Source: Candidatus Kurthia equi (lineage in GTDB: Bacteria; Bacillota; Bacilli; Bacillales_A; Planococcaceae). Taken from it: a stretch of 32,979 nt of DNA. Below are positions 16,783-17,455 of the stretch, piece after piece (positions within the stretch are counted from its first letter, which is position 1; each line of letters begins with the position of its first letter). The stretch is taken from NCBI GenBank assembly GCA_018065935.1, contig JAGHSJ010000407.1, forward strand, positions 1 to 32,979. Direction: 5' to 3'. Both the position numbers and the translations under genes were made by a program. The notes under the pieces were generated by a model. That model made no database searches. It was not told where the DNA came from and saw nothing but the letters and a program-made list of their open reading frames with translations.

Positions 16783-16811
16783 TTGCTTTAAATAGGTTGA
16801 AAGGCTAAAAT
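16783..16811 (+). promoter_or_regulatory. predicted sigma-A promoter of trpP
   Basis: TTGCTT and TAAAAT are separated by exactly 17 bases. Transcription would start near 16818, giving a leader of about 70 nucleotides before the trpP ATG. Confidence 0.6.
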
Positions 16812-16825
16812 TACGATAAGTTTCG

Positions 16826-16883
16826 CTAACGCTCATGAGGAGACGTTAGGAAGCAAAAAACAGTTGAGCTTAGGAGAGATGAG
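16826..16883 (+). promoter_or_regulatory. candidate TRAP-binding leader of trpP
   Basis: In the leader, GAG-ct-TAG-ga-GAG-at-GAG (16866-16883) gives four (G/U)AG triplets spaced exactly two bases apart, preceded in phase by CAG at 16861. They overlap the Shine-Dalgarno region just before the ATG. Upstream, GAG, GAG and TAG lie in a small hairpin (CTAACG/CGTTAG, 16826-16849). TRAP in B. subtilis binds such triplets in trpP to block translation when tryptophan is plentiful. That this organism has TRAP is not shown here. Confidence 0.5.
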
Positions 16884-16886
16884 AAA

Positions 16887-17414
16887 ATGAAAACAAAAAA
16901 CTTAGTATTGATGGCACTACTTGTCGCAGTGGGTGCTGCATTGTATTTAGTCATCCCAGGAATTAATGGGGGGATGAAACCCGATTTCATGCTTACCATG
17001 ATGTTTATCGGTATTTTATTATTCCCGAATTCACGTGATGTATTCTTACTAGCAGTAACTACAGGGATTTTATCAGGATTATTTTCAACATTCCCTGGTG
17101 GATTTGTTCCAAATATCATTGATAAATTTATTACAGCTTTCGTTGTATTAATTATTATTAAATTATTAAAATCTCATGCGACTAAAATTATTCCTGCTGC
17201 AATCGTAGTAGGTATTGGGACAATTATTTCTGGTAGTGTATTTTTAAGCACAGCGATCCTTTTAGTAGGAGCAAAAATTCCGTTTGCCTTTTTATTCTCA
17301 ACGGTCGTATTGCCTGCTGTTGCAATCAATATCGTAGCGTTCGTCATAATCTTCCCAATTATTATGACACTCGTGAAACGTTCGAAGTTTGACACTTCAT
17401 TGTCACATGCATAG
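16887..17414 (+). CDS. trpP: tryptophan transporter TrpP
   Basis: A 175-residue membrane protein with about five hydrophobic helices. It matches B. subtilis TrpP (YhaG, about 172 residues) in its N-terminus ('MKTKNLVLMALLVAVGAAL', 'GGMKPDFMLTMMFIGILLFP') and in 'PNIIDK' and the C-terminal 'FPIIMTLVKRS'. It imports tryptophan in B. subtilis, and its place next to hit agrees. The Shine-Dalgarno sequence TAGGAGAG is embedded in a run of (G/U)AG triplets, suggesting translational control. Confidence 0.9.
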   Translation: MKTKNLVLMALLVAVGAALYLVIPGINGGMKPDFMLTMMFIGILLFPNSRDVFLLAVTTGILSGLFSTFPGGFVPNIIDKFITAFVVLIIIKLLKSHATKIIPAAIVVGIGTIISGSVFLSTAILLVGAKIPFAFLFSTVVLPAVAINIVAFVIIFPIIMTLVKRSKFDTSLSHA

Positions 17415-17455
17415 AAAATAAAAGACCTCCTTTAAAGGCAGGTCTTTTATTTTTC
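17415..17455 (+). terminator. terminator of trpP
   Basis: AAATAAAAGACCT and AGGTCTTTTATTT form a 13-bp stem with a short loop containing CCTTTAAAGG, followed by TTTTT. It lies directly after the TAG. Confidence 0.9.

Follow-up and report, generated by a model that had tools for sequence, protein, structure and literature searches.

Does the row of GAG and UAG triplets that runs over the ribosome-binding site of trpP form a target for TRAP, and what is the role of the 5'-terminal hairpin in the same leader? To approach this question we analysed a 33-kb stretch of DNA (the window), which belongs to contig C156 of a 3.58-Mb draft genome. The gene for the tryptophan transporter TrpP (175 aa) is located on the forward strand at positions 16887–17414, and its product scored 154.1 bits against PF17099 (E = 3.8e-45), above the gathering cut-off of 27.2. 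Since the nearest TrpP relatives are those of Kurthia zopfii and Kurthia gibsonii (83% identity), the host belongs to Kurthia and not to Lysinibacillus, the genus named in the original prediction.

The predicted trpP promoter (16783–16811, forward strand) consists of a weak -35 box, TTGCTT (16783–16788), in which three of six positions fit, and a -10 box, TAAAAT (16806–16811), which agrees with the consensus at five of six positions. A generic promoter scan of the window did not return this promoter; it was identified from the sequence and from the conserved distance between the -10 box and the leader hairpin, which begins 6 nt further on in Kurthia and lies 6–7 nt away in 74 of 81 trpP leaders. 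The boxes are 17 nt apart, as had been read before, and the predicted transcript start near 16818 gives a leader of about 69 nt, in agreement with the 70 nt or so claimed earlier. Downstream of the gene, inspection of the sequence revealed a probable intrinsic terminator (17420–17455, forward strand) of the form AAAAGACCT...AGGTCTTTT followed by a T-rich tail, which was not among the results of a pattern scan. With this probable terminator behind it, trpP would be a single-gene unit.

Triplets over the trpP ribosome-binding site

The predicted TRAP site (16861–16883, forward strand) contains five in-phase NAG triplets, CAG at 16861, GAG at 16866, UAG at 16871, GAG at 16876 and GAG at 16881, with all spacers being 2 nt long. 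The Shine-Dalgarno sequence AGGAG (16872–16876, forward strand) lies within this array, which ends 3 nt short of the trpP ATG at 16887. The leader thus presents multiple (G/U)AG triplets that overlap the ribosome-binding site, within the 2–3 nt spacing of TRAP-regulated translation-initiation sites of the trpP/trpG type. The pattern of four KAG triplets with 2-nt spacers (KAGNNKAGNNKAGNNKAG) matched the window once, at 16866–16883, compared with 0.01 matches expected from shuffled sequences. The four triplets and the in-phase CAG described over the Shine-Dalgarno sequence are real.

Any AGGAG ribosome site includes a GAG, and two or three triplets at the 3' end of the array do overlap the Shine-Dalgarno sequence, as they would if the row were an accident of a purine-rich region with no TRAP function. 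However, none of the 244 gene starts taken as controls, which have Shine-Dalgarno sequences, attained the array score of the window (8.3, compared with a control maximum of 6.0). The score of the trpP leader array, a simple chain score, was matched by 7 of 5000 dinucleotide shuffles. The trpP leaders were above the 99% quantile of the same 244 control starts in 80 cases out of 81, and 289 of 306 array spacers were 2 nt long. The test that we rate as the strongest one concerned the register in which KAG triplets occur upstream of the Shine-Dalgarno block in 53 non-redundant trpP leaders. The triplets were found at a gap of 2 nt in 39, 7 nt in 27 and 12 nt in 10 of these leaders, with a minor peak at 9 nt (14 cases), which corresponds to a 4-nt spacer in some leaders, and 0–6 cases at each of the remaining gaps. 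Ribosome binding offers no explanation for a 5-nt period, and the register reaches as far as 12 nt beyond the 5' side of the Shine-Dalgarno block; we consider an accidental origin of the triplets very improbable. The array is conserved in both close and distant relatives with its register kept, and the original prediction, which had been staked beforehand on conserved triplet spacing, stands on this point.

When the triplets in the hairpin and those at other spacings are included, nine NAG triplets can be counted between the hairpin loop and the start codon. The Kurthia site has just five in ideal phase, one of them a CAG. TRAP sites are usually given as 9–11 repeats, according to a published account (PMC4347634). 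The proposal that so few triplets mean weaker or divergent control has little footing, since the trpP leaders of the B. subtilis type likewise carry five in-phase triplets ahead of the start codon.

A conserved 5'-terminal hairpin in the trpP leader

The 5'-terminal hairpin of the leader (16820–16854, forward strand) was recognized by its fold, by covariation in 51 relatives and by its presence in other families of Bacilli. It is built of a lower stem, GUUUC/GAAGC, a bulged G16825, a CUAACG/CGUUAG stem, a bulged A16843 and a CUC/GAG upper stem, and is closed by the loop AUGAG (16835–16839). The predicted folding energy is -17 kcal/mol (z = -2.85). Triplets in a 5' hairpin had been noticed originally, and a GAG is indeed contained in the loop; what had not been foreseen was the conservation of the hairpin. 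In the 51 relatives, standard pairs filled 95.5% of the hairpin pair cells and compensatory changes were detected at 12 of the 14 pairs, with 123 double-change cells. The covariation score was equalled in none of 500 shuffles, and sliding the partners abolished the signal. The unpaired positions were conserved as well: the loop follows ANGAG, with the A present in 50 and the AG in all 51 relatives, and the bulged A is found in 51 of 51. The trpP leader therefore has a 5'-end hairpin with conserved unpaired loop bases, as expected of a TRAP-binding 5' stem-loop like that of the B. subtilis trp leader. An A-rich linker, whose length varies among relatives, joins the hairpin to the array.

No Rfam family matched the Kurthia trpP leader at the gathering score, and the weaker hits included none of relevance. 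A covariance model made from trpP leaders (R1) found a single strong copy in the Kurthia genome (78 bits, with the runner-up at 18) and matched 137 of 150 genomes of the order, all of which fall in Kurthia's own family, at E 0.01 or better, in most cases with a strong match that abuts trpP. Ten of the 13 genomes with no match were covered by our TrpP survey, and all ten were found to lack TrpP. In the wider set of 201 Bacilli genomes, TrpP was present in 26 and a match of the model abutted trpP in 23 of them, while a local search added the hairpin in two genomes of the B. subtilis type (46.7 and 43.2 bits), bringing the count to 25 of 26. The trpP leaders of the B. subtilis type have the same hairpin fold. 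Eleven of the 26 genomes are outside Kurthia's family and spread over six families, and the hairpin covariation recurred in the matches from outside the family, in an alignment fitted to the model. The trpP leader of genome G286 contains the triplet array with no evident 5' hairpin, the sole such case among the 26.

We favour a TRAP contact as the role of the hairpin for two reasons: its unpaired positions are conserved, and in B. subtilis the trp leader has a 5' stem-loop, reportedly described by McGraw and colleagues, that binds TRAP. The trpP hairpin is probably an auxiliary contact of this kind. It is conceivable, at somewhat less than even odds, that TRAP uses the triplets and that the hairpin is unrelated to TRAP, serving either to stabilise the 5' end of the mRNA against RNase or as a spacer through which the array stays single-stranded. 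The location at the extreme 5' end, 6–7 nt past the -10 box, is where stabilising hairpins act, and the variable length of the linker would suit such a role too, but a plain stabiliser needs neither a loop conserved in sequence nor the bulged A that is found in every relative. That the hairpin is the site of another RNA-binding protein, for instance CsrA, which binds GGA in hairpin loops, seems improbable to us. Some of the loops read ACAGGAU or UAGGAG and resemble the CsrA/RsmE consensus as quoted in PMC4347634; in most leaders, however, the GA of the GGA takes part in base pairing in the upper stem, and binding of CsrA would leave the 5-nt register of the triplets unexplained.

TRAP and the other tryptophan genes

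The Kurthia genome contains mtrB, the gene for TRAP, adjoining folE (L001:1495–1713), and its product is a full-length MtrB by NCBIfam equivalog. At the position that we take to be Glu60 in B. subtilis residue numbering, Kurthia TRAP has a lysine, which is only suggestive since the best PDB match has a lysine there too. In PMC7430163, this position is tied to TRAP-induced termination, and roles in triplet contact are given for K37, K56 and R58, the equivalents of which are kept in the aligned Kurthia protein. The check for mtrB that the original prediction had called for thus ended with the gene found and its RNA-contact residues intact, and the presence of mtrB together with the conserved triplet register supports the TRAP-type layout proposed for trpP after the example of B. 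subtilis. Anti-TRAP (rtpA; PF15777) was not found in the Kurthia draft genome. We detected mtrB in 147 of the 201 Bacilli genomes and in all 26 that carry trpP, a co-occurrence to which no probability is attached, as these genomes are related. The gene was present in 151 of 151 sampled genomes of the family, and such universal occurrence makes its gain or loss unusable for testing the arrays.

The search for trp triplets elsewhere in the genome, also called for earlier, did reveal an array over trpE, in an arrangement with a T-box that had not been anticipated. The Kurthia trpE leader (contig C192, reverse strand) is a T-box, RF00230, with a score of 132.8 bits. Directly after the T-box terminator, the triplets AAG, GAG, GAG, GAG and GAG follow each other at intervals of 2 nt and extend over the Shine-Dalgarno sequence of trpE. 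When 24 trpE leaders from the family were scored, with the start codons assigned by hand, 22 surpassed the 99% quantile of the controls and 15 surpassed their maximum; most of the 24 contained a T-box by Rfam, and the T-box motif was found in 22. The trp leader family RF02370 was not matched on the Kurthia trpE leader or on those of its family, where the T-box RF00230 was found, and occurred in Bacillus genomes only. Of ten trpE leaders from other families, nine had array scores of 2 to 4.3, and these comprised three from Bacillus with RF02370, three in which long triplet arrays occur in the absence of a T-box, and three with tandem T-boxes. The tenth, from genome G296, combines a T-box with an array. 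The trpE leader of genome G004 contains nine triplets in a perfect 2-nt register, right before the start codon and after the T-box.

Within the family, 17 of 20 secondary matches of the trpP model were located at the starts of trpE, trpD or trpB, with six of the genes confirmed by a family model, and a T-box was present just upstream in six of the seven trpE and trpD loci tested. Two of the 20 matches, at an asd-type gene, look like chance, and one is ambiguous. One match of the same model in Bacillus is pabA (trpG), a known TRAP target; the start of Kurthia pabA showed no convincing array, and the Kurthia trp operon carries its own trpG. The sole match to a strict five-triplet pattern in the Kurthia genome, at C398:48408–48430, consists of five KAG triplets, in register with 2-nt spacers, that precede a gene for an ECF-transporter ATPase (ecfA type) by about 29 nt. 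We set this site aside as being about what chance provides, the expected number of matches being estimated at roughly 0.4 to near one. Its location is noteworthy in that TrpP itself may be an ECF S-component.

A model of trpP control and its relation to known systems

We propose, with a probability of roughly nine in ten, that TRAP represses translation of trpP at the predicted array and that the hairpin is most likely an extra contact. The trpP mRNA would start near 16818 with the small hairpin and continue through the A-rich linker into the row of GAG and UAG triplets that overlies the ribosome-binding site. At high tryptophan, Trp-loaded TRAP, a ring of 11 subunits, would wrap the triplets and block the binding of the 30S subunit, and the importer would not be produced. 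At low tryptophan, TRAP would be inactive and TrpP would be translated. The hairpin, which has an ANGAG loop and a bulged A, would most likely offer TRAP an additional contact that aids its binding to a short array. The sequence itself establishes which genes are present, TRAP among them, as well as the array and the hairpin with their conservation and covariation; TRAP binding, repression and the role of the hairpin in Kurthia are what we infer from it.

TRAP control of trpP is already known. B. subtilis trpP (yhaG) is likewise an orthologous single gene with triplets over its Shine-Dalgarno sequence in a genome that encodes TRAP, and repression of its translation by TRAP was reportedly described by Sarsero in 2000 and Yakhnin in 2004. 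The leaders of this type share both the hairpin fold and the number of in-phase triplets with Kurthia, the difference being that the first in-phase triplet in Kurthia is a CAG. At the TRAP sites of B. subtilis trpG (pabA) and ycbK, the triplet array directly blocks the ribosome site, as is predicted for Kurthia trpP; we know of no 5' hairpin at these sites. The trp leader of Bacillus, RF02370, resembles the Kurthia trpP leader in having a 5'-terminal hairpin followed by a triplet array, and in one Bacillus genome the apex of this stem-loop reads AAGAG, comparable to the Kurthia trpP loop. However, RF02370 has a longer array (11 triplets in B. subtilis), works by transcription termination and is absent at Kurthia trpE. 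The T-box RF00230 is found on trpE of Kurthia and across its family; in Kurthia it is followed by the TRAP-like array over the Shine-Dalgarno sequence, whereas no such array is present in three other Bacilli genomes whose trp leaders are tandem T-boxes. The blocking of ribosome binding by TRAP at trpP is known experimentally in B. subtilis, according to two published accounts (PMC4347634; PMC11255114).

Our search of the open literature returned no account of the hairpin family, nor of leaders that combine a T-box with a TRAP-type array; the novelty of both is provisional. A broader proposal, for which we put the chances at even, is that the trpP hairpin is a dedicated TRAP-recognition element for short arrays across Bacilli, and that TRAP in Kurthia's family has no attenuator role and represses the translation of several tryptophan genes from a position behind a T-box, with trpE reading tRNA charging at the level of transcription and free tryptophan at the level of translation in one leader and with no anti-TRAP. 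In B. subtilis a protein intermediary, anti-TRAP, connects the signal of free tryptophan with that of tRNA charging. If our reading is true, an entire neighbouring family joins the same two signals inside one mRNA leader, and its example would show in what way TRAP can persist as a translational repressor in the absence of the attenuator. The conserved hairpin of the trpP leader would also add a defined element, and one that is easy to test, to the means by which TRAP locates short sites.
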